A program made the position numbers and the translations under genes. From an uncultured Saprospiraceae bacterium (lineage in GTDB: Bacteria > Bacteroidota > Bacteroidia > Chitinophagales > Saprospiraceae): a stretch of DNA of 53,380 nt. This document shows, one piece after another, positions 32,881-45,421 of this stretch. The notes below the pieces were generated by a model. It saw only the letters and a list, made by a program, of their open reading frames with translations. It was not told where the DNA came from and searched no databases. The number at the start of each line of letters is the position of its first letter. The stretch's first letter is position 1. The DNA lies in the NCBI GenBank assembly GCA_938001865.1, contig CALLAW010000054.1, positions 1 through 53,380 of the forward strand, given 5' to 3'.

Positions 32881-35154
32881 ATGGCAGCGACCAAGGCATT
32901 TACTCAGAAAGAGTACAAAGATATTGAGAGAGCATTTGAGAATCTTTACACTCAGATGGAGTCAAAGTTGGTGGGTGATGATGCCAAAAATCTAAGAAAA
33001 GGATACGAGGTAGCTCTTGAAGCACATGGGAGTCAAAGGCGTAAATCTGGTGAGCCTTATATCTTGCATCCCATAGAAGTAGCTAGGATCTGTACCGAAG
33101 AGATCGGTCTAGGTCCAACAGCGGTGGTCGCAGCTCTCCTCCATGATGTCGTAGAAGACACTCCTGTATCCAAAGAATCAATACTCGAGACATTTGGACC
33201 TAAGATAGCAAAGATAGTTGATGGGCTTACGAAGATTGATGGACTCTACAATGTAGAAAGTCCTCAAGCAGAAAACCTCAAAAAAGTCCTCAGTACACTC
33301 GTCGAAGACGTCAGGGTAATCTTAATAAAAATGGCGGATAGACTCCATAATCTCAGGACGATCGACAGTATGCCTCAACACAAAAAACTGAGAATAGCTG
33401 CTGAGACATCTTATATCTATGCTCCATTAGCTCATCGGCTCGGACTCTATACCGTCAAAACAGAATTTGAAGATATCATCCTCAAGATCAATGAACCAGA
33501 AAACTATAATTACATCCACTCCAAGATCAAAGATACTGAGGCGACACGTACAGAGTATATCAAAGACTTCTTCAAACCTCTAGAACGGAAGCTTGAGATG
33601 CTCGAAAAAGAAACTAACTATAGATATCAATCTAATCTGTTTCCAGATCCAAAACCAGTCTTCAAATATCGAACACAAGGACGTGTCAAAGCGATCTCCT
33701 CTATCAACAACAAACTCAAAACAAAGAAGATCCCATTTGAAAAAATCTATGATCTCTTTGCAATTAGAATCATCGCTAAAGTGCCCAAAGAAGATGAAAA
33801 AAGAATCTGTTGGCAGATCTACTCAATGGTTACCGATGTCTACAAACCAATACCAGAACGACTCAAAGACTGGGTAACATCGCCAAAGAGTAATGGCTAC
33901 GAATCTCTGCATACTACAGTGATAGGCCCTGATGGCAAATACGTGGAAGTACAGATACGATCAGAGAGGATGGATGAAATCTCAGAACGAGGATTTGCAG
34001 CTCACTGGAAGTACAAAGGAATCAAAGATGAAAATAGTGTCTACGATAGATGGCTCAATAATATCAGAGAGATGTTAGACGAACAACACTCTGATGCCAT
34101 AGAATTTATCAATGACTTCAAGACCAATCTCTTTGCTGAAGAGGTATATGTATTCACTCCTAAGGGTGATATGAAAGTATTACCAAAGGGTGCCACCGCC
34201 TTGGACTTTGCCTTCGAGATTCACTCTGATATCGGATATAAGACTACAGCACTCAAGGTAAATGACAAGATAGTCCCTATGGGATTTAAATTGGAAAATG
34301 GAGATAGAGTTGAAGTAATTACGAATAACAATCAAAAACCCAAAGAAGCTTGGCTCAAGATGGTCGTGACTGGTAAGGCAAGATCTAAGATCAGGTCGTC
34401 GATGAAAGAAGAGAGACGCAAGCAAGGTGAAATGGGTAAGGAAGCACTCGATAGAAAACTCAAACGAGTCAAAGCTGACTTTGATCTCAATATCGACGAA
34501 CTAGTAAAATACTATGATACAACGTCTAGAGCCGACCTCTACTACGCTATCGCCAATGATACCATTAAAGTCAATCTAAAAGAATTTGCTGTCGAAGGGA
34601 AAAAGCTGATCATACCTAAAAAGTCACAAAACGACTCTCCCTCAATTGGTAAGAAAGCACCGAGTGATACTCATGGTAAGGAACAATCAAGTAAAGCAAC
34701 CAATATCATTGTCAATGGAGATCCTATCGATATGTATGAACACGAGCTTGCCAGCTGTTGCAATCCCGTACAAGGAGATTCGATCTTTGGATTCTTGACG
34801 CTAGGCGCAGGTCTCAAGATCCACCGCATCAGTTGTAAGAATGCTACAAACCTACTTGCAAAATACGGTTATCGTGTACTCAGCGCTGAGTGGTCTAATA
34901 TCTCCAACAAAGAATTCGTTGTAGACTTGAAGGTAACAGGAATAGACTCAGGGATAGGAGTAATCAATAATCTGATCAATGAGATCTCAAATAAGCTCAA
35001 AGTGAATATTAGATCCTTCAGTATCAATGGTAATGAAGGCTATTTTGAAGGTGATCTCAGTGTCATCGTGAAGAACAAAGACCAACTCCATGTCGTGATG
35101 TCTAGTGTATTAGCATTAGAGGGAATCGCCGATGTCCAAAGAATTGAAAAATAA
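32881..35154 (+). CDS. Bifunctional (p)ppGpp synthetase/hydrolase (RelA/SpoT)
   Basis: This 757-residue Rel/Spo homologue makes and degrades the alarmone (p)ppGpp in the stringent response. The hydrolase domain has RKSGEPYILHPIEVA and the metal motif HDVVED (His88-Asp93). The synthetase domain has YDLFAIRIIAK, SPKSNGYESLHTTV and EVQIRSERMDEISERGFA. A TGS domain follows (about 410-475), then a CC-containing zinc-finger-like region (ASCCNPVQGD near 625), and a C-terminal ACT domain (about 680-757). The intact HD motif suggests both activities are retained. The Fur-family gene follows 18 nt later. Confidence 0.95.
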   Translation: MAATKAFTQKEYKDIERAFENLYTQMESKLVGDDAKNLRKGYEVALEAHGSQRRKSGEPYILHPIEVARICTEEIGLGPTAVVAALLHDVVEDTPVSKESILETFGPKIAKIVDGLTKIDGLYNVESPQAENLKKVLSTLVEDVRVILIKMADRLHNLRTIDSMPQHKKLRIAAETSYIYAPLAHRLGLYTVKTEFEDIILKINEPENYNYIHSKIKDTEATRTEYIKDFFKPLERKLEMLEKETNYRYQSNLFPDPKPVFKYRTQGRVKAISSINNKLKTKKIPFEKIYDLFAIRIIAKVPKEDEKRICWQIYSMVTDVYKPIPERLKDWVTSPKSNGYESLHTTVIGPDGKYVEVQIRSERMDEISERGFAAHWKYKGIKDENSVYDRWLNNIREMLDEQHSDAIEFINDFKTNLFAEEVYVFTPKGDMKVLPKGATALDFAFEIHSDIGYKTTALKVNDKIVPMGFKLENGDRVEVITNNNQKPKEAWLKMVVTGKARSKIRSSMKEERRKQGEMGKEALDRKLKRVKADFDLNIDELVKYYDTTSRADLYYAIANDTIKVNLKEFAVEGKKLIIPKKSQNDSPSIGKKAPSDTHGKEQSSKATNIIVNGDPIDMYEHELASCCNPVQGDSIFGFLTLGAGLKIHRISCKNATNLLAKYGYRVLSAEWSNISNKEFVVDLKVTGIDSGIGVINNLINEISNKLKVNIRSFSINGNEGYFEGDLSVIVKNKDQLHVVMSSVLALEGIADVQRIEK

Positions 35155-35172
35155 TAGTATCTTTCTACCAAT

Positions 35173-35652
35173 ATGAGCCAAAGTACAGAAGCCCTAGAAA
35201 ATATTATCGAAGAGGTAAAGACTATCTTTTCCTCGCATCTTGAGTCTCACAAGCTCAGAAAGACACCAGAGCGGTATACTATCTTAGAGGAGATCTATCG
35301 TCGTACTGATCACTTTGATGCCGAAGCTCTCTATATCCATATGAAGGCCCAAAACTATCGGGTAAGTAGAGCAACTGTCTATAATACACTGGAACTGTTA
35401 GTCAGTTGTGATCTCGTCACGAAGCATCAGTTCGGCAAGAACACTGCTCGATATGAAAAAGCCTATGGTTATCGACAACATGATCATATCATCTGTGTCA
35501 ATTGTGGTAAAGTCTTAGAATTTTGCGATCCAAGAATCCAACAAATCAAAAATATGATGGGAGAGCTTATGGAGTTCAATGTCACTCATCACTCACTCAA
35601 TCTCTATGGTACTTGTAAGTCAGATTGCAAGCCTAAATCGGACGAATACTAG
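35173..35652 (+). CDS. Fur-family metal or peroxide-responsive repressor
   Basis: This 159-residue DNA-binding protein has a Fur winged-helix domain (LRKTPERYTILEEIYRR, VSRATVYNTLELL) and a dimerisation domain with the metal region HDHIICVNCGKV. Structural zinc cysteines are the CxxC of CVNC and the C-terminal GTCKSDC. Whether it senses iron, zinc or peroxide (Fur, Zur or PerR) cannot be told from sequence alone. It is 18 nt downstream of rel, so iron or redox state and the stringent response may be linked in expression. Confidence 0.9.
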   Translation: MSQSTEALENIIEEVKTIFSSHLESHKLRKTPERYTILEEIYRRTDHFDAEALYIHMKAQNYRVSRATVYNTLELLVSCDLVTKHQFGKNTARYEKAYGYRQHDHIICVNCGKVLEFCDPRIQQIKNMMGELMEFNVTHHSLNLYGTCKSDCKPKSDEY

Positions 35653-35700
35653 GTGACACTCACAGTCAGTTCCCTCAGAAGCTGACTCCCGGGATATCAA

Positions 35701-36882
35701 TCAATTTCCTTTCACTTCTTTGAATGGTGACCTTGCTCGCCAGGTATTGTCAGGGATGAAATATGGAACAACTTTTTTCATCATGCGGTTGAGCAATTTG
35801 TTGTGTGCATGAGTATAGACAGCGAGATGATGCGGCTCAGCACCTATGGAGCTTTTGATCTCTAGTGCCGTCCTTGAGAGTTCTAGAGATTGTACATTAT
35901 TGTCTATTGCTTTTTCCATCAGCCAATAGAGCATATTGAGATAGAGCTGATAGTCCTTATTGAGTGATTGTTCATAGCCAAGAAAGTGACCATGCATCTG
36001 ATCTCCATCTCTGATTGTAGAGTAAAATGCTACAAACTCTCCGTCTAAGTAGACACCAAAGATCTCTACCGCATCTCCAAGTGATTGCTTGAGCATCACG
36101 AAATAGTCAGGGTGAAGGGTAAAGAGATTAAATGTAGAGTAAGCTGCTATCTTTAAATATAGGTTGTATATCGTTTGGCTATTCTGTTTGAGGTCGTCCA
36201 GTGACAGTGTCTTCACTACGAATGATTGCCCTAGTTTCTTAGCTCTCCTTACTCTTACTCTCGCCTTTGACTTCATCGCAGAGAGATAATCATCAAAGCT
36301 CTTCCACTGAGGATCAATCTCCACAATCATCGTCGGGTCAGCGCTATATGGTGTATACTCCGCATGCTGAAATTTAGATGACAATCTATCATCTGCCAGC
36401 TCAAAATCCTTGACCATGATTGTCTTGATTTTGATACCATATGACTTAGCCAGATCGATAATAGCCTTACTTGCACCGTGTACGAGAGGGGCATGGAGAT
36501 TGTCATCCACCGAATCACAAAATCGATATCCATAATCACCAGTCAAAGAGACATTACCTACGACAAGGAGATTATCATTGATCATCTTCGCTCCCCACTT
36601 TTTCACGGAAGTGAATATCTTATCAATGAAATTGTTACTATGACTATGGATATTGAGGCTCTGCGACAAGCTAAATTTCTTAACCTGCCAATAGATAATG
36701 CCAACACTTTGGTCATCTCTTAGTACTACACCGTACTTGTACTTGATATCTTCAAGAGGAGCCTTCTCTAGTACCTCAAGATACTGGCTAGACAGTAGGA
36801 TATCATCTTTGGCTAACTCATCCCAAAATGGTGCAAGAGACCTGATATCATCCTTAACAGCAATAGAGTAACCACCAAACAA
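35701..36882 (-). CDS. GNAT-fold (FemAB/BioF2-like) acyltransferase of unknown substrate
   Basis: A 393-residue cytoplasmic protein. The second half resembles the GNAT/FemAB-like acetyltransferase domain: KSKARVRVRRAKKLG, a NLYLKIA region, EIFGVYLDGEFVAFYST, and LELSRTALEIKSSIGAEPH. These proteins transfer acyl or aminoacyl groups, in some cases to cell-envelope targets. The N-terminal half is less conserved. No partner gene is adjacent. A -7 element lies at 36950-36957. Confidence 0.72.
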   Translation of the reverse strand: MFGGYSIAVKDDIRSLAPFWDELAKDDILLSSQYLEVLEKAPLEDIKYKYGVVLRDDQSVGIIYWQVKKFSLSQSLNIHSHSNNFIDKIFTSVKKWGAKMINDNLLVVGNVSLTGDYGYRFCDSVDDNLHAPLVHGASKAIIDLAKSYGIKIKTIMVKDFELADDRLSSKFQHAEYTPYSADPTMIVEIDPQWKSFDDYLSAMKSKARVRVRRAKKLGQSFVVKTLSLDDLKQNSQTIYNLYLKIAAYSTFNLFTLHPDYFVMLKQSLGDAVEIFGVYLDGEFVAFYSTIRDGDQMHGHFLGYEQSLNKDYQLYLNMLYWLMEKAIDNNVQSLELSRTALEIKSSIGAEPHHLAVYTHAHNKLLNRMMKKVVPYFIPDNTWRARSPFKEVKGN

Positions 36883-36949
36883 AGGAATAGCTCCTTCGAG
36901 TGATTGTAGTTTAGGGGTTTTACAGTTAAATTGAAGTGTCTTGATAGTA

Positions 36950-36957
36950 CAAATGTA
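36950..36957 (-). promoter_or_regulatory. -7 element for the GNAT-like gene
   Basis: The minus strand reads TACATTTG. It gives a leader of roughly 60 nt. No good -33 box. Confidence 0.45.
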
Positions 36958-36996
36958 TGTTATCCTCTGGAAAAACGTAATGAATTAAAAAATGTT

Positions 36997-37536
36997 CTAT
37001 TCTACATTTTCTAATATGCGTAATGCTTTGAGATCATTGGCCCATTCCATATTACTACAATTACTCAATTCACAATTGGTCTTAAACCATGCGGCAATGA
37101 GGTTTTTGTATTGTATCTCATTGAGACTCCATGAGTTATAAGATTCGTCATCTACATTGTCATTTTGAAGTTGATCAGATTTGCAGAGGACAAATGCGAG
37201 TTGAGTAGAGTCTTTTACGATAAGATATGCCCCGATTGGATCGATCTGATATGCTTCATGAGTCGCGAGTGGAGGACCGAGCAGCATCCCAAAGACATTG
37301 TCTGTGAACTTACCAACATTAAACAATGTAGGCACTTTACTCTTAAATATAGACTCAGGGAGTAACGTACCTGTTGGATAATCAATCTTGAGTGTCTGTT
37401 TGGTATCGGCAGAGTAGCCAGCAGTACTTTGTGTATCATGGTGAGACTGCTCTCCACAACCTACCGAGATAAGCAAGGCGATGCTGATGCAAAACAGGTA
37501 ATGATTACCAATGGTATACTGCGCTATAATCTTCAT
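36997..37536 (-). CDS. Predicted lipoprotein of unknown function
   Basis: A 179-residue protein with an N-terminal hydrophobic stretch and a lipobox-like ISVGC at about residue 27, so it is probably anchored in the outer membrane by a lipidated Cys. The mature region has no recognised domain. A short GPPLATHEAYQIDP segment is the only distinctive part. It lies upstream, on the opposite strand, of the arsenosugar pair and shares the intergenic region at 37537-37652. No function inferred. Confidence 0.65.
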   Translation of the reverse strand: MKIIAQYTIGNHYLFCISIALLISVGCGEQSHHDTQSTAGYSADTKQTLKIDYPTGTLLPESIFKSKVPTLFNVGKFTDNVFGMLLGPPLATHEAYQIDPIGAYLIVKDSTQLAFVLCKSDQLQNDNVDDESYNSWSLNEIQYKNLIAAWFKTNCELSNCSNMEWANDLKALRILENVE

Positions 37537-37652
37537 ATCATTCTATTGATGTACAATATCGACATACTTTAGCATTTTTACCACTATATGGATACCTTTA
37601 TACTTTCGTCTATTAATATTTAGTTTCTTTGATATAGAATTCAGTAATTTTT

Positions 37653-37988
37653 ATGAGCAAAACATACTTCGATCCCAATGACTTGAAAAAATTCAAGGAT
37701 ATCACTGACTTCCAGAAGGAATATGGTGAAAAGTTTTTTGATTACTATGGATCAGTCTTCCAAGAAGGAGCATTGACTGCAAGAGAGAAAGCACTCATCG
37801 CATTGGCAGTTGCACATACTGTCCAGTGTCCTTACTGTATCGATGCCTATACTAATGGATGCTTATCCAAAGGTGCTGACGAAGAGCAAATGATGGAAGC
37901 TGTACATGTAGCGGCAGCAATCAAGAGTGGAGCTACACTCGTCAATAGTGTCCAAATGATGAATCAAGTCAAGCAAAAAATGATGTAA
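37653..37988 (+). CDS. Arsenosugar-associated AhpD-like (CMD-family) protein
   Basis: A 111-residue protein of the carboxymuconolactone decarboxylase/AhpD-like fold. The redox pair is Cys59 and Cys62 in CPYCIDAY, with a further Cys70 after the helix (TNGC). In known genomes this small peroxidase-like protein travels with the radical-SAM enzyme ArsS in arsenosugar synthesis, and that gene is indeed next, 96 nt away. Its role there is not established in detail. A 12-bp hairpin lies between the two. Confidence 0.85.
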   Translation: MSKTYFDPNDLKKFKDITDFQKEYGEKFFDYYGSVFQEGALTAREKALIALAVAHTVQCPYCIDAYTNGCLSKGADEEQMMEAVHVAAAIKSGATLVNSVQMMNQVKQKMM

Positions 37989-38014
37989 TTACATCTAGAG
38001 AGCAGATGACTTAC

Positions 38015-38046
38015 GTAGAGTACTACAGATAAGTAGTGGACTCTAC
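38015..38046 (+). promoter_or_regulatory. Intercistronic stem-loop between the AhpD-like gene and arsS
   Basis: GTAGAGTACTAC pairs with GTAGT-GG-ACTCTAC around a 6-nt loop, a 12-bp stem with a 2-nt bulge. There is no U-tract after it, so it is more likely an RNA-stability or processing element than a terminator. Regulatory role is a guess. Confidence 0.4.
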
Positions 38047-38084
38047 CACTTACGTTAAAATTAAATGATAGAATAAAATAGCAC

Positions 38085-39155
38085 ATGTCAGTAAAGCAAA
38101 GATCAAAGACACTCAGTAGATCCAATAATGAGTTAGCAGACACTCTTATCCAACTCAATATACTGAATGATAAGGAGAGACTCGATGAGAGCTTCGTCCC
38201 ATTCAGAAAAAAAATTGCGGAAGATGGATTGGCTAACGGGATCGATCCTGTCTATCCTGATATCTTCCAACTCAACATTGGCAAACTTTGCAACCAGACC
38301 TGTGCCCATTGCCATGTAGATGCTGGCCCAGATAAGAAGGTAGAGAATATGGACAAGGCTACCCTCGAAAAGTGCCTATCAATCATCAAAAAATATCAGA
38401 TCCCGATCGTAGATATTACTGGTGGGGCTCCAGAGATGAACCCTCACTTCAGATGGTTTGTGGAGGAGTGTACGGCTGCTGGAGCCAAAGTCATGGACAG
38501 ATGCAATCTAACTATCATCGAAGCACATAAGAAATATAGTGATCTCCCTCAATTCTTTGCAGATAATAAGGTCGAAGTCGTATCGAGTCTTCCTTACTTC
38601 ACGGCAAGTCGTACTGATGGACAAAGAGGTGATGGAGTCTTCGAAGCAAGTATCGCTGCATTGAAAAAACTCAACGAAGTAGGCTACGGAGTCGAAGGGA
38701 GCGGTCTGACACTCAATCTTGTATTCAACCCGTCGGGAGCCTTCCTCCCAGGTGATCAGATGGAACTCGAGACAGAGTTCAAAAATCAGCTCAAGAGACG
38801 ATATGGCATTGTATTTAACAACCTTTTTGCAATCACCAATCTTCCTATCAGCAGATTCCTTGACTACCTCCTAGAGTCAGGTAACTATACTCAATATATG
38901 ACAGATCTGATAGATGCGTACAACCCCACTACCCTTGATGGTTTGATGTGCCGAAATACGATCTCAGTAAGCTGGGACGGACATGTCTATGACTGCGATT
39001 TCAATCAAATGCTAGATCTGAAAGTTGCGAGTCCATCTAACCACTTAGATAACTTTGATATGGATCAATTTGTCAATAGGAAGGTGGTGCTCAATCAGCA
39101 CTGTTACGGGTGTACTGCAGGAGCAGGCAGTAGTTGTGGAGGTGAGGTAGCATAG
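38085..39155 (+). CDS. arsS: Arsenosugar biosynthesis radical SAM protein ArsS
   Basis: A 356-residue radical-SAM enzyme proposed to form the arsenic-ribose bond of oxo-arsenosugars. The [4Fe-4S] motif is Cys69-x3-Cys73-x2-Cys76 in KLCNQTCAHCHVDAG, typical of ArsS. Later signature parts are RCNLTIIEAHKKY, CRNTISVSWDGHVYDCDFNQML and the C-terminal HCYGCTAGAGSSCGG with extra cysteines for an auxiliary cluster. The AhpD-like partner gene is upstream. The arsenite methyltransferase ArsM is not in the window. Confidence 0.93.
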   Translation: MSVKQRSKTLSRSNNELADTLIQLNILNDKERLDESFVPFRKKIAEDGLANGIDPVYPDIFQLNIGKLCNQTCAHCHVDAGPDKKVENMDKATLEKCLSIIKKYQIPIVDITGGAPEMNPHFRWFVEECTAAGAKVMDRCNLTIIEAHKKYSDLPQFFADNKVEVVSSLPYFTASRTDGQRGDGVFEASIAALKKLNEVGYGVEGSGLTLNLVFNPSGAFLPGDQMELETEFKNQLKRRYGIVFNNLFAITNLPISRFLDYLLESGNYTQYMTDLIDAYNPTTLDGLMCRNTISVSWDGHVYDCDFNQMLDLKVASPSNHLDNFDMDQFVNRKVVLNQHCYGCTAGAGSSCGGEVA

Positions 39156-39266
39156 ATTCTTATCCTGCTATTGGTCTAGCCAAAAAAAAATAACAACTCT
39201 AAATAATCTGAGTCCAAGGATTGTAGATTACATTTACATAACAATGTAATCCAACCCGTAGCACCC

Positions 39267-40316
39267 ATGAATGTTATTGACCTCAAAGAAGCTTCACTGT
39301 CTCGACTTATCACCCATCACATCGGATCTATATCACGGGAGGGGCAACTTATCTTGAGTAGTGAAGAGACTCGTGTGAGTGATGATGATACCGAGAGATA
39401 CCTCAAGTCATACTTCCTAGATACTCTCAAAACTGATGAAGTATTCGAATTTGCCCATAGCATTGACCTTAGTCACAATAGTGTCTATACCCTCGTGAGT
39501 AGCATATTTGCAGATGAGAGTAATTTCATCCCACTCTCAGCTAATCTCGCAACATTACTCCATGAGAGTAGTACTCATCCACAGATTAAAGATGGCAAAC
39601 TCAGTATAGTTATCTTCAACCAAATCAGATATGGTGACGAGCTAGTCAGAGCAATAGGGTTGTTCAAGTCAGAGACATCTGTGCCTTTTCTACAACTCCA
39701 TGAGACAGAATCATATCTGGCCTTCGGACACGAATACGGCTTTGAGCTCAAAGGTATAGACAAAGCTTGCTTGATCTTAGAGACTAATAATGAACATGGC
39801 TATGCTGTACTCATCCGTGATACAGCTGGTAAGCACAAAGAAGCACAATACTGGATCGATGACTACCTCCATGTCCAACCGAGTGCCAATGAATACAATC
39901 TAACTAAACAATTCATGGCACTCACAAAAGACTTCGTCGTAACTCAAGCGGCGGAAGAGTTCATGATGAGCCCGACTGATAAGATCGATGTACTCAATAA
40001 GACTATGGATTACTTCAAAATCAATGAACAGTTTGACAAGGAAGAATTTACTGATACCGTCTTCGGAGATACACCGATGAAAGAATCATTCTTGGAGTTT
40101 GATACGGCAATGAGAGTTGGGCAACCACCAGAGAGTAATGCCAAGTTTGACATTTCCGCAAGGGCAGTAAAGTCCCAAAATAGCGTATATAAAAGTGTAC
40201 TCAAATTAGACAAAAACTTCCATGTCTATATCCATGGAGATAAGTCACTCATCCAAAGAGGTACAGAACCCGATGGAAGAAAATACTACAAAATATACTA
40301 CGAAAACGAAGCTTAA
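39267..40316 (+). CDS. Nucleoid-associated protein, NdpA/YejK family
   Basis: A 349-residue cytoplasmic protein resembling the nucleoid-associated NdpA (YejK) family, which binds DNA and is thought to help structure the nucleoid. Seen: LITHHIGSISREGQL at the start, the YLKSYFLDTLKTDEVFEF region, IRYGDELVRAIGLFKSE, and the C-terminal YKSVLKLDKNFHVYIHGDKS. Precise function in Bacteroidota is unclear. A near-match to the -7 element (TACATTTA) lies at 39229-39236. The next 325 nt on the plus strand hold no gene; see the minus-strand RNA candidate. Confidence 0.8.
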   Translation: MNVIDLKEASLSRLITHHIGSISREGQLILSSEETRVSDDDTERYLKSYFLDTLKTDEVFEFAHSIDLSHNSVYTLVSSIFADESNFIPLSANLATLLHESSTHPQIKDGKLSIVIFNQIRYGDELVRAIGLFKSETSVPFLQLHETESYLAFGHEYGFELKGIDKACLILETNNEHGYAVLIRDTAGKHKEAQYWIDDYLHVQPSANEYNLTKQFMALTKDFVVTQAAEEFMMSPTDKIDVLNKTMDYFKINEQFDKEEFTDTVFGDTPMKESFLEFDTAMRVGQPPESNAKFDISARAVKSQNSVYKSVLKLDKNFHVYIHGDKSLIQRGTEPDGRKYYKIYYENEA

Positions 40317-40348
40317 CCGTAAAGCTATCATTGCAAACAAAATTGAGC

Positions 40349-40378
40349 AAAAAAAAAGCCCTCTTTTGCAAGAGGACT
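40349..40378 (-). terminator. Intrinsic terminator, minus-strand specific
   Basis: On the minus strand AGUCCUCUU pairs with AAGAGGGCU (one G-U wobble) around a GCAA tetraloop, followed by about nine U. On the plus strand the wobble becomes a C-A mismatch and no U-tract follows, so the element works for the minus strand. Confidence 0.85.
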
Positions 40379-40556
40379 CCAAACAATTATGAAAAAGCTC
40401 ACGCTTCTTACATCTTTATAATCTTTCCGACATGAGTCGACATACATGTTATAACAATAAAATAAAAGTACTCCAATTTTGAGAAAGAACTTGCCTAATA
40501 CCCAAAATGTAGAATATAAATATCTTAAATGCCAATATTGGCAATTTCGCTATCGT
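40349..40556 (-). ncRNA. Candidate intergenic RNA, about 205 nt
   Basis: The stretch is bounded by a strong minus-strand promoter (40561-40591) and a minus-strand terminator (40349-40378), and there is no convincing ORF; the only ones are of 11 and 39 codons, and the 39-codon one runs through the terminator. The transcript begins near CACGATAGCGAAATTGCC and contains a 14-nt perfect palindrome. Length fits 6S RNA or a regulatory RNA, but no clear 6S-type long hairpin with paired ends was seen and no known family was recognised. Confidence 0.5.
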
Positions 40557-40560
40557 GGTG

Positions 40561-40591
40561 CAAATTTAGATTTTATCTGTGTTTAAACAAA
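40561..40591 (-). promoter_or_regulatory. Strong promoter for the minus-strand RNA
   Basis: On the minus strand TTTG (40588-40591), exactly 19 nt of spacer, then TAAATTTG (40561-40568) followed by CACC. This is a near-ideal Bacteroidota sigma-A promoter. The start site would be near 40556. Confidence 0.8.
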
Positions 40592-40692
40592 TAAATGCCA
40601 AGCAAAAAATAATAAAAGTTTTTAGCTATTGAAAAACAAGAATGTTAATCCGTAAATTAAACATATCTTCTACACTTGATGTTAAATCTACT

Positions 40693-41133
40693 ATGAGTAC
40701 AACAGACGCTAAAATCACGGTTAATCCGATAGATAAAGATAAAATCGCCACGAATCCTCACCTATTACCCTATGCACATACGCTAGGTAGCGCTATCATC
40801 AAGCCCATAGACGAAGGGAAGATCAAAGGTCGATCTCTAAAGTCGATGTATAAGCAGACAGAAAACTCCTTGACACAAATCAAAGAACAGGTAGATCTCT
40901 TAGTCAAACAAGCTCAGAAAATCCATGATAGGATTGCAATCTCAGAGAGCATCTACCAAGCTGAGTGTCGGATAACACCGCTTGTAGGGCACATCTATCA
41001 CCTCTACGAAAAATCTGATGGGACCAAAGTACTCTCTATGATCGGACCCGATGATTGGGGTAGCTCATCACCATATACACATGTCGCAGAAGTGGAGCTC
41101 CTTGCCGATCATACCTGGGATGTCCTCTCCTAA
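40693..41133 (+). CDS. DUF2452 family protein
   Basis: A 146-residue protein of the uncharacterised DUF2452 family, known mainly from Bacteroidota. Seen: VNPIDKDKIATNPHLLPYAHT, SAIIKPIDEGKIKGRSL, a coiled-coil-like middle, and GHIYHLYEK...SMIGPDDWG and LLADHTWDVL at the end. The ATG at 40693 matches the usual N-terminus of the family; an upstream ATG at 40642 would add 17 residues of uncertain value. No signal peptide. Function unknown. It is not closely linked to its neighbours. Confidence 0.78.
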   Translation: MSTTDAKITVNPIDKDKIATNPHLLPYAHTLGSAIIKPIDEGKIKGRSLKSMYKQTENSLTQIKEQVDLLVKQAQKIHDRIAISESIYQAECRITPLVGHIYHLYEKSDGTKVLSMIGPDDWGSSSPYTHVAEVELLADHTWDVLS

Positions 41134-41245
41134 GCTTTCTTTGATAGAGTTATAATCAAGCAATTCACTATCTTAGCCGTATCAGACCAATACTCCTTGG
41201 ACGGATACGAATGTCAACTCTCAAGATAACATCAAATATCATCGT

Positions 41246-43474
41246 ATGAAAAAAAGTCATCAGATACTCTGTGTTGGTATCCTCTCAGTGATATCAATAC
41301 TGATAACTCCAGCATGCAATCCCAAAACAACTCAACCATTAGCCTCTAACCCAACCACAACAATGCAACAGAAGACCTTAGAATCAGTAATCTCTCAGTA
41401 CAAAGCCCCAGTAGCGTCTCGAGAGGAGCATGCCATCACTACGCATGGTGATACCAGGATAGATCAATACTTCTGGATGAGACTCTCTGATGAACAAAAA
41501 AATGCTAAAACTCCAGATCTGCAAACTCAAAAGGTGCTCGACTATATCGATCAAGAAAATACATACAAATCTCAAGCACTAGCACATACAGAGTCACTCC
41601 AAGATAATCTCTTCGACGAGATAGTGGGACGGATCAAGCAAACAGATGAAAGTGTTCCATATAAGTATCAAGGCTACTACTATCTCACTAGATATGAAGA
41701 GGGTAAAGAATATCCAATCTATAGCCGTAAAAAAGGATCACTAGATGCCACAGAAGAAATTATGCTCAACGTCAATGAACTAGCGAAAGATAAGGACTAC
41801 TTCGCCGTATCTGGCATGAATATCAATAGTGATAATACAATCTTGGCATACGGAGAAGATGTAATCAGTAGACGAATCTACACGATCAAGTTCAAAAATC
41901 TAGAAACTGGAGAATACTATGATGACATAATTGAGAATACGACAGGAAGTGTCGTCTGGGCAGAAGGAAGCAACGTAGTCTTCTATACTCGAAAAGATGA
42001 TGCCCTCAGATCATACAAAATATTCAAACATACTCTTGGTACCGATGCAAGCCAAGATATAGAGGTCTGGCATGAAGTAGATGACACCTATCGGACATTT
42101 GTCTACAAGACCAAAAGCAAAAAGTATATCCTCATAGGCTCTGGATCTACCCTATCTGATGAGTATCGATATATCCCCGCTGACAACCCCAATGCAGATT
42201 GGACAATCTTCCAGCCTAGAGAGAAGAATCTCGAATATAGTGTCAGTCACTATGCAGACAAATGGTATATCAGAACAAACAAGGATGGTGCTGAGAATTT
42301 TAAACTGATGACATGTGCTCTAGACAAAACAACTCAAGACAACTGGAAAGAATACATCCCTCACCGGGAAAAAGTACTCCTACAGTATACAAGTATCTTT
42401 AACAATTACCTCGTCTTGAGTGAGAGGATAGATGGGATCTCCAAGATACGGATCATGCCGTGGAATGGAGAGAACGACCACTATATCCAATTTGACCAAG
42501 ATGCCTATGTAGCCTATCCCTCTACCAATCCAGAGTTTGATACAGACGTATTGCGAGTGAGCTATAGCTCTCTCACGACACCTCGGACCATCTTTGACTA
42601 TCACATGGAGACTAAGTCATTCACCCAGCTCAAACAGCAAGAAGTAGTTGGCTCATTTAGCCAGACTGACTACCAGTCGGAGAGAATAATGGTAACAGCT
42701 AGGGATGGTGTCCAAGTACCTGTCAGTCTTGTCTACCATAGAGATACACCGCGAGATGGGAGTGCTCCTCTCCTCCTCTATGGATATGGGAGTTATGGAA
42801 GTAGTATGGACCCCTACTTTAGTTCAGTAAGATTGAGCCTTCTCGACAGAGGATTTGTCTATGCCATAGCTCATATCAGAGGTGGCCAAGAACTTGGGCG
42901 GCAATGGTACGAAAACGGAAAGTTTCTCAAAAAGAAAAACACCTTTTTTGACTTCATAGATTGTGGTAAATACTTAGTAGCCGAAGGCTATGGTAGCGAA
43001 GACAAACTCTTTGCTATGGGAGGAAGTGCTGGTGGGTTGCTCATGGGAGCAGTCATGAACTACCAACCAGAGATGTGGAGAGGTGTCGTCGCTGCTGTAC
43101 CATTTGTCGATGTCGTGTCGACGATGCTCGATGAGAGTATTCCTCTTACGACTGGCGAATTTGACGAATGGGGGAATCCGAAAGACAAAGCATACTATGA
43201 TTATATCAAAAGTTACTCACCGTATGACAATGTCGAAGCTAAGGACTATCCATCAACTCTCATCACCACAGGATATCATGACTCTCAAGTCCAGTACTGG
43301 GAACCACTCAAGTGGATAGCCAAGCTCAGAGAGTATAAGACGGACAATAATCCACTTCTCCTACACTGTGAGATGGAAGCCGGTCATGGTGGCAAGTCTG
43401 GAAGATTTAGGCGGTATAGAGAGACAGCGCTAGAGTACGCATTCATCCTAGACTTAGCTGGTATCCATGAATAG
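41246..43474 (+). CDS. ptrB: Oligopeptidase B-type prolyl oligopeptidase (S9)
   Basis: A 742-residue serine peptidase that cleaves short peptides after basic residues in the oligopeptidase B group. It has a propeller-like N-terminal half and a C-terminal alpha/beta hydrolase domain. The catalytic triad is Ser594 in GGSAGG, Asp679 in GYHDSQV and His714 in EAGHGGKSG; the spacing of 85 and 35 residues equals that of E. coli OpdB. An N-terminal hydrophobic stretch ending in ITPAC may be a lipoprotein or signal sequence, so it may be exported, unlike the cytoplasmic E. coli form. It overlaps the next gene by 8 nt. Confidence 0.9.
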   Translation: MKKSHQILCVGILSVISILITPACNPKTTQPLASNPTTTMQQKTLESVISQYKAPVASREEHAITTHGDTRIDQYFWMRLSDEQKNAKTPDLQTQKVLDYIDQENTYKSQALAHTESLQDNLFDEIVGRIKQTDESVPYKYQGYYYLTRYEEGKEYPIYSRKKGSLDATEEIMLNVNELAKDKDYFAVSGMNINSDNTILAYGEDVISRRIYTIKFKNLETGEYYDDIIENTTGSVVWAEGSNVVFYTRKDDALRSYKIFKHTLGTDASQDIEVWHEVDDTYRTFVYKTKSKKYILIGSGSTLSDEYRYIPADNPNADWTIFQPREKNLEYSVSHYADKWYIRTNKDGAENFKLMTCALDKTTQDNWKEYIPHREKVLLQYTSIFNNYLVLSERIDGISKIRIMPWNGENDHYIQFDQDAYVAYPSTNPEFDTDVLRVSYSSLTTPRTIFDYHMETKSFTQLKQQEVVGSFSQTDYQSERIMVTARDGVQVPVSLVYHRDTPRDGSAPLLLYGYGSYGSSMDPYFSSVRLSLLDRGFVYAIAHIRGGQELGRQWYENGKFLKKKNTFFDFIDCGKYLVAEGYGSEDKLFAMGGSAGGLLMGAVMNYQPEMWRGVVAAVPFVDVVSTMLDESIPLTTGEFDEWGNPKDKAYYDYIKSYSPYDNVEAKDYPSTLITTGYHDSQVQYWEPLKWIAKLREYKTDNNPLLLHCEMEAGHGGKSGRFRRYRETALEYAFILDLAGIHE

Positions 43475-44171
43475 TCCAGACTCTTCTCAAAAGTATCGAG
43501 ACCTCTTCTTTGATATTGATAATACGATTGTAGATTTTGAGCAAGGAAGTCAACAAGCATTTCGTCTCGTCTTCGAAGAGCTCGGACTGGACTTTACTGA
43601 TGCCATCTATGAGCAATACAAGATCGTCAACAGGAGATACTGGATGGCATTCGAAGATGGACGTATAGATAATGCCACACTGAGAAGTGGAAGGTTTGAA
43701 GCATTCTTTAAGGAGTACGGGTATGGAGACTACAATGGTCAACAGATCAATGATGCATATCTCAATAATCTCATTACTACAACTGAGGCAATCCCTGGTA
43801 TCAAAGACTTACTCGTCTCACTCAAGGTGAACCATCGGATCCATGCGATTACCAATGGATTCAAAGAGGTGCAGCGACCGCGACTCAAAAGGATGGACCT
43901 TATCCACCTCTTTGACTCCATCACAGTATCTGACGAGATAGGAATAGCCAAGCCTGATAGCGCCTACTTTGATCACGCATTTAATCTCAATACGCCACTG
44001 CCGATCAAGTCAAAGACTCTGGTGATTGGCGATAGCCTTACATCAGATATCCAAGGCGGCAACCGATATGGTGTCGATACCTGCTGGATCTCTAACTCTA
44101 ACTACAACGATGGTGGACATACACCGACTTATACCATCAAATCTATCTTAGATCTCAAAGAAATTCTCTAA
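43467..44171 (+). CDS. HAD-superfamily nucleotidase, YjjG type
   Basis: A 234-residue phosphatase with the HAD motif I DIDNT (Asp16, Asp18), motif II region ITNGF, and motif III/IV region KSKTLVIGDSLTSDIQGG. This layout fits the YjjG family, which dephosphorylates pyrimidine nucleotides including damaged ones. Start is an ATG that overlaps the end of the oligopeptidase gene by 8 nt, so translation is probably coupled. The hydrolase-OsmC gene follows 32 nt later. Confidence 0.86.
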   Translation: MNSPDSSQKYRDLFFDIDNTIVDFEQGSQQAFRLVFEELGLDFTDAIYEQYKIVNRRYWMAFEDGRIDNATLRSGRFEAFFKEYGYGDYNGQQINDAYLNNLITTTEAIPGIKDLLVSLKVNHRIHAITNGFKEVQRPRLKRMDLIHLFDSITVSDEIGIAKPDSAYFDHAFNLNTPLPIKSKTLVIGDSLTSDIQGGNRYGVDTCWISNSNYNDGGHTPTYTIKSILDLKEIL

Positions 44172-44203
44172 ACAAAAATTGTCTAACCGATAAGTAATCA
44201 GAT

Positions 44204-45421
44204 ATGCCATCTACCAAACTTCAGTTCTTAAATAATAAGGGGCTTAATCTCTCCGCCAAATTAGAGATTCCAGCTAATGGTGAGATCCATGCCTATGCTA
44301 TACTAGCACATGTCTTTACTGGCAACAAAAACCTGTCAGCCACTCGGTATATCGCAAGATGCTTAGTGCAAAATGGAATTGCAGTTTTGAGATTTGATTT
44401 CACTGGATTGGGAGAGAGTGAAGGACTATTTGAAGATACTAACTTCTCTTCCAATGTCGATGACATCTTATCAGCAGCACAGTATCTAGAGGATAACTAC
44501 GAAGCTCCAGAGCTCCTAGTCGGTCACTCACTCGGTGGCGCTGCCGTCATCTACGCAGGATCTCAACTCGAGTCCATCAAAGCCATCGCTACCATAGGGG
44601 CACCATCAGAGCCAGAGCATGTGACTCACCTGCTCTCTCAGAAGATAGAGACCATCAAGTCAGATGGCAAAGCGATGGTAGATATTGGTGGACGACAATT
44701 TACGATCAAGAAGCAGTTTCTCGATGACCTGAGAAGCAAAAATATGGAAGGCATACTCAAGGAACTCAAAAAACCTATCTTAGTCATGCACTCTCCTCAA
44801 GATAGTGTCGTAGGTATCGAAAATGCAGCAAAGATCTACCACGCAGCATTTCATCCAAAGAGTTTCATTTCACTGGATGGAGCAGATCATATGTTGAGTG
44901 ATAAGAAAGATGCTCACTATGTCGGTGACTTAGTGGCTTCATGGCTAAGTAGATATATCTCGAGCATAGAGCAAATCCCAATCCAGACTGATCGTCAGGT
45001 AGCAGCACGTCTGGGTGATGTCGGATATACTACTGAGATCAAAGCAGGTAAGCACTCACTCCTCGCTGACGAATCCGAATCAATTAACTCCGAAGATTTT
45101 GGACCATCCCCGTATCAATTACTCTCGTCATCACTAGCTGCATGTAAGGTCATGACTCTCCAGATGTATGCTAGACGCAAACAATGGGAACTCACAGAAG
45201 CTATCGTCCATGTTGACTTCAGACGTAACTATACAGTAGACTGTGAAGATTGCGAAAGCGGCACCAAGAAGATAGACTTGCTAGACTGTACTGTAGAGCT
45301 CATCGGTGACCTCGATGAGACTCAGAGACTCCGATTGCTAGAGATAGCGGATCGCTGTCCTGTACATAAGACTCTCTCTCCCACTATTACTATCCAGTCA
45401 GTACTCAAGGCAACAGAGTAA
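44204..45421 (+). CDS. Alpha/beta hydrolase fused to OsmC-type peroxiredoxin
   Basis: A 405-residue two-domain protein. The N-terminal alpha/beta hydrolase (about 1-255) has the nucleophile Ser109 in VGHSLGGAAV and a probable His in GADHMLSD. The C-terminal OsmC/Ohr-like domain (about 270-405) carries Cys314 (LAACKVMTL) and Cys385 (DRCPVHKTL), the cysteines used to reduce organic hydroperoxides in that family. Such fusions are known in bacteria. Hydrolysis plus peroxide defence is a family-based inference. It probably belongs to the oligopeptidase-YjjG transcript. Confidence 0.88.
   Translation: MPSTKLQFLNNKGLNLSAKLEIPANGEIHAYAILAHVFTGNKNLSATRYIARCLVQNGIAVLRFDFTGLGESEGLFEDTNFSSNVDDILSAAQYLEDNYEAPELLVGHSLGGAAVIYAGSQLESIKAIATIGAPSEPEHVTHLLSQKIETIKSDGKAMVDIGGRQFTIKKQFLDDLRSKNMEGILKELKKPILVMHSPQDSVVGIENAAKIYHAAFHPKSFISLDGADHMLSDKKDAHYVGDLVASWLSRYISSIEQIPIQTDRQVAARLGDVGYTTEIKAGKHSLLADESESINSEDFGPSPYQLLSSSLAACKVMTLQMYARRKQWELTEAIVHVDFRRNYTVDCEDCESGTKKIDLLDCTVELIGDLDETQRLRLLEIADRCPVHKTLSPTITIQSVLKATE

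Follow-up and report, generated by a model that had tools for sequence, protein, structure and literature searches.

The window analysed here, a stretch of 53,380 bases, is contig C54 of the 3.58-Mb genome (G000) of an uncultured Saprospiraceae bacterium. It contains an intergenic gap, flanked by a gene of the NA37 nucleoid-associated family and a gene of the DUF2452 family, that carries a promoter-like element, a folded stretch and an intrinsic terminator, all on the minus strand (Table 1). Both neighbours are plus-strand genes, so the minus-strand terminator has no evident protein gene to serve. Elsewhere in the window, at 37653-39155 (+), a gene of the carboxymuconolactone-decarboxylase family adjoins a radical-SAM/DUF3641 gene.

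Table 1. Positions of the gap, its flanking genes and the parts of the predicted RNA, numbered along the window
Feature	Coordinates	Strand	Basis
Gap (325 bp)	40317-40641		between the NA37-family and DUF2452 genes
Flanking gene, NA37 nucleoid-associated family	39267..40316	+	Pfam PF04245, E = 3.7e-27
Flanking gene, DUF2452 family	40642..41133	+	Pfam PF10504, E = 1.6e-19
Putative promoter TTTG-N19-TAAATTTG	40561..40591	-	sole perfect match in the window
Predicted sRNA, ~205 nt	40349..40553	-	promoter and terminator positions, start placed from the promoter; 40348-40560 folds at z = -3.2
5' domain with its own fold, ~100 nt	40450..40553	-	z = -3.1; 2/200 shuffles fold equally well; no counterpart in relative G001
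Hairpin 1, sequence different in each copy	40427..40440	-	fold of 40350-40442
Hairpin 2, GUGA loop	40392..40409	-	predicted in 3/3 copies
Core, 39 nt, the same in all three known copies; complementary to a translation start	40369..40407	-	comparison of copies
Pairing stretch AUAAUUGUUUGGAGUC (putative seed), extending into the 5' arm of the terminator	40375..40390	-	matches the G001:C117 leader exactly over 16 bases
Intrinsic terminator, 11-bp stem, GCAA loop, nine U	40349..40380	-	also found in both G001 copies

Signals and fold of the intergenic gap

The promoter is the single perfect occurrence of the pattern TTTG-N19..21-TANNTTTG in the window, both strands having been scanned. In shuffled windows the perfect pattern arises 0.37 times on average and at least once in 35 of 100, and it was counted 13 times on the two strands of 651,055 bp sampled from G000. 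At this genome's own rate, one strand of a 325-bp gap should hold about 0.003 perfect promoters. A scan of positions 35000-45000 for sigma-70 elements (TTGACA/TATAAT) remained at chance level, with 25 sites against 26.4 expected. The length of about 205 nt depends on the start placed near 40553; additionally, a weaker promoter-like site at 40535-40504, matching at 8/10 positions, could yield an RNA of about 150 nt.

The terminator stem proper occupies 40380-40355 and lies 181 bases beyond the promoter, its four-base loop and nine T residues being those of Table 1. It has the most stem pairs among the six terminator-like sites in 35000-45000, a count that is not above chance (6 versus 5.4, s.d. 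2.3). In all three known copies of the RNA, two of which come from the relative described below, the 5' arm of the terminator is the same and the 3' arm varies at two positions; at these positions the minus strand retains a U-A or U.G pair, where the plus strand would have C.A. An invariant 5' arm combined with pairing-preserving differences in the 3' arm favours the minus strand as the transcribed one, and these three sequences also suggest that the 5' arm may be held constant for some further reason. Measured against shuffled sequences, the minus strand, taken over 213 nt, folds unusually stably (z = -3.2) and the plus strand does not (z = -0.3).

Three hairpins make up the part of the RNA that recurs between copies, which we call the module, and its fold scores z = -4.1, -3.4 and -3.0 across the three copies. 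At the position of hairpin 1, the minimum-energy folds of both G001 copies form a hairpin, which is absent from the centroid in copy B. A short single strand, AUAAUUGUUUGG, separates hairpin 2 from the terminator in the predicted fold. The 5' domain appears as a closed fold of its own, and no sequence common to G001 was found outside the module.

Coding content in the gap is limited to nine short frames of 21-56 aa overlapping 40330-40600. A minus-strand frame, VSFFIIVWSPL(A/E)..., is open from a GTG across the core in 3/3 copies (40407-40349 in the window and both G001 copies); because it continues through the terminator, the terminated RNA would hold no stop codon for it, and it was not counted as a convincing ORF. 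The main elements of the original prediction were therefore borne out at this locus, namely a minus-strand TTTG-N19 promoter, a terminator with a GCAA loop and nine U that pairs properly on the minus strand only, and a gap free of convincing ORFs.

Copies in relatives and the search for known families

The same gap is kept in G001, a genome of the same genus, where it holds two tandem minus-strand copies of the core and terminator. The three copies known from the two genomes have an identical 39-nt core, and the rest of the gap has diverged: the longest other stretch common to the G000 and G001 gaps is one of 20 bases at the 3' end of the terminator. Upstream of the first G001 copy stands a near-consensus promoter, ATTG-N20-TATATTTG, and a weaker promoter-like site overlaps the start of that copy. 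Since no promoter site of at least 8/10 positions lies between the two copies, RNAs of roughly 130 nt and, with read-through, 290 nt would be expected in G001.

Wider searches added no accepted copy to these three. The DNA of the gap matched 6 of 60 genomes, its own included, and among the others G001 alone matched beyond a short stretch. The 81-base module matched 25 of 398 genomes at E up to 0.01; outside G000 and G001 the matches are pieces of 19-58 bases, and the two best (G082 and G205) span the terminator only. A covariance model, R1, was run over 398 genomes of the family and gave the three known copies 93-105 bits and at most 37.5 bits elsewhere. Its matches at E up to 0.1, found in 39 of the 398 genomes, number about as many as chance would give (~0.1 x 398), so the three known copies alone were accepted. 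No further significant copy was detected in these 398 genomes, which include the congeners G002 and G003; when R1 was applied with laxer filters to four members of the genus, G002 reached at most 25.4 bits and G003 gave no match.

The highest R1 score outside the genus, 37.5 bits and at chance level over the 398 genomes, belongs to a site in G298 (L197, 1501-1578, minus strand), where UUCGUAAUCGUUUGG lies directly 5' of a terminator; it is possibly a distant relative of the RNA. The gene order around the gap is similarly restricted, with NA37 standing beside DUF2452 in G000 and G001 only among the 27 DUF2452 loci examined. In G002 and G003, DUF2452 is preceded by other genes, and NA37 was located elsewhere in G002 and not found in G003.

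Comparison with Rfam did not assign the RNA to a listed family. At the gathering score, the whole window yielded one tRNA and no other match, and at E up to 10 the gap yielded 12 matches, all far below gathering. The original prediction had noted that the size fits 6S RNA or a regulatory RNA, and the second half of that guess fared better. A length of about 200 nt is the likeness to 6S RNA; no 6S family is among the matches listed for the window (gathering score) or for the gap (E up to 10), and what is conserved consists of three hairpins together with an antisense stretch. The 6S assignment is thus not supported. A 6S-Flavo search of the bacterium's own genome was silent, as were its controls.

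Two checks set beforehand were thus carried out, the covariance search against 6S and other Bacteroidota RNAs, which left the gap without a family, and the alignment of the same gap in relatives, which provided the promoter and terminator with counterparts in G001, the relative that keeps the gap. Good support for an undescribed RNA gene on the minus strand comes from the preserved gap, the tandem copies with their identical core, terminator differences that keep pairing on the minus strand only and the lack of an Rfam match, and we hold with high confidence that the gap contains a real RNA gene.

Complementarity to the starts of lipoprotein genes

The core holds the complement of a translation start, CUCCAAACAAUUAUGAAAAAGCUC, and its own complement, CTCCAAACAATTATGAAAAAGCTCACGCTTC, resembles one. 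In the complement, CAATTATGAAAAAGCTC would read as MKKLTLL, comparable to the MKKLSLL of the lipoprotein gene G000:C103. When AAACAATTATGAAAAAGCTC (20 bases) is searched in G000 with up to one mismatch, the one place found besides itself is the start of that same gene. C103 is a member of a CarboxypepD_reg lipoprotein family, for which G000, G001, G002 and G003 gave 4, 5, 3 and 4 matches, respectively. Because C103 was picked by its match and the family was found afterwards, G001 alone provides an independent test.

Duplexes between the core and the gene starts were evaluated across this family. A duplex energy of -24 or lower was reached by 4 of the 9 members in the carriers G000 and G001 (G001:C119, -32.1; G000:C103, -30.5; C90, -26.6; C117, -24.3), by 0 of 7 in the non-carriers G002 and G003, where the lowest value is -19.2, and by 2 of 502 sampled genes. 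In a larger sample, with the start of each background gene taken as its first ATG and with one family member (C9) included, 7 of 956 genes reached -24, rising to 10 of 956 when up to four ATGs were tried. Tests against random genes gave p = 1e-5 for G001, 8.5e-4 for G000 and 0.56 for the non-carriers. Similarly, shuffled cores matched the result of the real core in 0 of 300 cases in the carriers and in 31% in the non-carriers.

When the folding of both partners was counted, C103 scored -24.7 against a best value of -17.3 among 497 sampled genes in G000, and C119 scored -18.2 against -14.4 among 459 in G001. C90 fell to -13.8 and C117 to -9.6, the latter among the best 2.6%. The duplexes with C103 and C119 span the start codon; for C117 the paired region runs from 44 to 11 bases upstream of it, in the leader to which AUAAUUGUUUGGAGUC has its exact 16-base match. 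The C90 site is directly downstream of a promoter-like box and possibly outside the transcript, for which reason C90 was discounted as a target. Without it, 2 of the 5 G001 members remain, corresponding to p ~5e-4 at the rate of 7/956 if the paralogs are treated as independent, a value that shared descent may weaken.

Two properties expected of a trans-acting base-pairing sRNA are therefore present: a promoter and an intrinsic terminator of its own with no accompanying protein gene, as read from the sequence, and a conserved pairing stretch whose distant targets exceed background, independently in G001 and partly by selection in G000. A third property, which is usual support without being strictly defining, is missing, since likely orthologs do not share the target sites. 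C9, which matches C103 best in G001, is a poor target (-16.9), and so is G000:C6 (-15.7), the counterpart of C119 judged by eye.

Other sites were also considered. Near-matches to the bare start context, apart from the RNA itself, number 10, 5, 10 and 8 in G000 to G003, and a general enrichment of such matches in carriers was rejected, given that they are equally common in non-carriers. Some unrelated sites also score well as bare duplexes; one of them, located where a coding region ends in G000:C21, has a bare duplex of -33.7 and drops to -11.9 with structure. Among the matches listed for GACTCCAAACAATTAT at up to two mismatches there are 30 sites, 3 of which are the RNA itself; 21 of the other 27, C90 included, fall in frames of at least 100 aa. 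Four further G001 sites of this sequence were seen, three on C119 and one on C93. Separately, GACTCCAAACAA occurs within the third gene of three sigma-factor operons (G000:C5 60099, G000:C6 47426 and G001:C119 6678, all on the minus strand), coding-region sites that we attribute to chance or common descent.

The family itself has a recognisable genomic setting. Six of its loci were mapped, and in five (C5, C6, C90, C117 and C119) the lipoprotein gene is followed by a sigma-70-type gene and then by a longer third gene; behind C103 there is neither a sigma-factor gene nor a third gene. According to Pfam, 4 of the 5 second genes carry sigma regions 2 and 4, and the 114-aa frame of C6 carries region 4 alone; the ECF sigma model is above cut-off for C5 and C90. 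For the third genes, Pfam at E up to 0.001 gave nothing beyond a sub-threshold barrel in C117. The same three-gene operon, in which a CarboxypepD_reg lipoprotein and a sigma-70-type factor precede a protein of 448-506 aa, thus recurs at L148, L149, L150, L152 and L153.

Upstream of 8 of the 16 family members in G000 to G003, at a distance of 58-89 bases, we found the box GCARCGTT (for instance at L154, L150, L148 and L153), compared with 2 of 502 sampled genes, and GTACGTACACC lies upstream of 4 other members and of 0 of 502 sampled genes. On this distribution, both boxes are probably promoter elements of a sigma-factor regulon. If they are read in this way, the family would form a genus-wide regulon, and the RNA would be a layer added in two species. 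The gap of the RNA itself has no GCARCGTT box in G000 or G001.

Proposed role, alternatives and related systems

Since the core mirrors the start of certain lipoprotein messages, the RNA probably switches lipoproteins off, and we judge it somewhat better than even that it is a trans-acting antisense sRNA repressing lipoprotein translation, with targets in the CarboxypepD_reg family. C103 and C119 are the firmer predicted targets, and C117 is assigned less surely. In the mechanism we propose, the RNA would start near 40553 and end near 40349, and AUAAUUGUUUGG, exposed between hairpin 2 and the terminator, would pair with the message around the start codon. To extend the duplex, hairpin 2 would open together with the base of the terminator stem, and ribosomes would be kept off the message so that the lipoprotein is repressed. 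Where a sigma-factor operon follows the lipoprotein gene, its downstream genes would be repressed too.

The RNA may instead be a real sRNA whose main targets lie elsewhere, or whose role is protein binding, with the lipoprotein matches arising from a start context common to secreted proteins, AAUUAUGAAAAA. This context is indeed as common in non-carriers as in carriers, many of its occurrences being starts of secreted-protein or lipoprotein genes, and the lack of shared sites between likely orthologs agrees with such an origin. However, the lipoprotein family stands out against the 956 sampled genes, and only in the carriers, and its matches run beyond the common context, into GACTCC for C117 and C119 or into the codons past AUGAAAAAG for C103. 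We regard this alternative as rather unlikely.

Control in cis is improbable. Any transcript reading through from NA37 into DUF2452 would be antisense to the RNA, and the order of genes around the gap is the same in G001, which would suit a cis-antisense or read-through control element for these two genes; yet pairing in cis is perfect with any sequence, so a 39-nt identity within a diverged gap and a second copy would be unneeded. Even less probable is a small-peptide gene in the conserved stretch, whether MKKLTL... on the plus strand or VSFFIIVWSPL... or KRELFHNCLESS on the minus strand. The plus-strand frames (10, 8 and 16 aa) do have MKKLTL in common and the VSFFIIVWSPL frame is open in every copy, but the former differ beyond those six residues on a strand that folds ordinarily, the latter crosses the terminator, and an ATG for the KRELFHNCLESS frame is present in just one copy. 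With just six residues shared, the plus strand likewise offers no small toxic peptide gene kept between species opposite the RNA, as a type I toxin-antitoxin pair would have. That there is no gene, and that promoter and terminator met by chance, is scarcely credible: terminator-like sites are at chance level in the region, but core and terminator are conserved and duplicated in a second species whose surrounding gap has diverged.

For the preferred reading, a trans-acting repressor of lipoprotein translation, we tentatively suggest an origin that we would not call likely: the RNA gene may be an inverted copy of a lipoprotein-gene start from the sigma-factor regulon, now a dedicated post-transcriptional brake on that regulon; different family members would have acquired sites in each species, and the pairing stretch would partly double as the 5' arm of the terminator. 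If the repressor is real, an uncultured Saprospiraceae lineage gains an sRNA with named, testable targets, sRNA control becomes tied to lipoprotein/sigma-factor operons in Bacteroidota, and carriers and non-carriers within one genus are available for comparison.

Among the best-ranked full-text literature matches, no sRNA from Saprospiraceae was described, which is weak evidence of absence. The closest parallels come from other Bacteroidota. As presented in PMC11697453, the FopS family of Bacteroides thetaiotaomicron comprises 14 intergenic sRNAs of ~65-70 nt that are transcribed from canonical Bacteroidota promoters, are bound by RbpB and use their 5' part to base-pair with the translation start of the leading gene in surface-protein operons, repressing SusC-type genes. 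The RNA described here resembles that account in being multicopy and intergenic, in its Bacteroidota promoter and in its predicted pairing at translation starts of surface proteins; it differs in having one or two copies, a pairing stretch that adjoins the terminator and CarboxypepD_reg lipoproteins as candidate targets. GibS of Bacteroides (Rfam RF04182), in the description given by PMC7366714, is a 145-nt intergenic sRNA whose unstructured 5' end pairs across start codons; its promoter motif differs from the one found here. Both GibS and our RNA are intergenic sRNAs with start-codon pairing, predicted in our case, but the GibS model scores 16.1 bits where gathering requires 115. For both systems the seed is in the 5' part, whereas the conserved stretch at 40369-40407 adjoins the terminator. 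Membership in FopS or GibS is not supported, as the GibS model is unmatched and both seed position and targets differ.

A further comparison can be made by description with Rfp18 of Flavobacterium, for which PMC9723704 reports several functionally related predicted targets, metalloproteases and an adhesin, all through one stem-loop, and two protease messages lowered by deletion of the RNA. Although its targets differ, Rfp18 is, like the RNA proposed here, a Bacteroidota sRNA with grouped targets.
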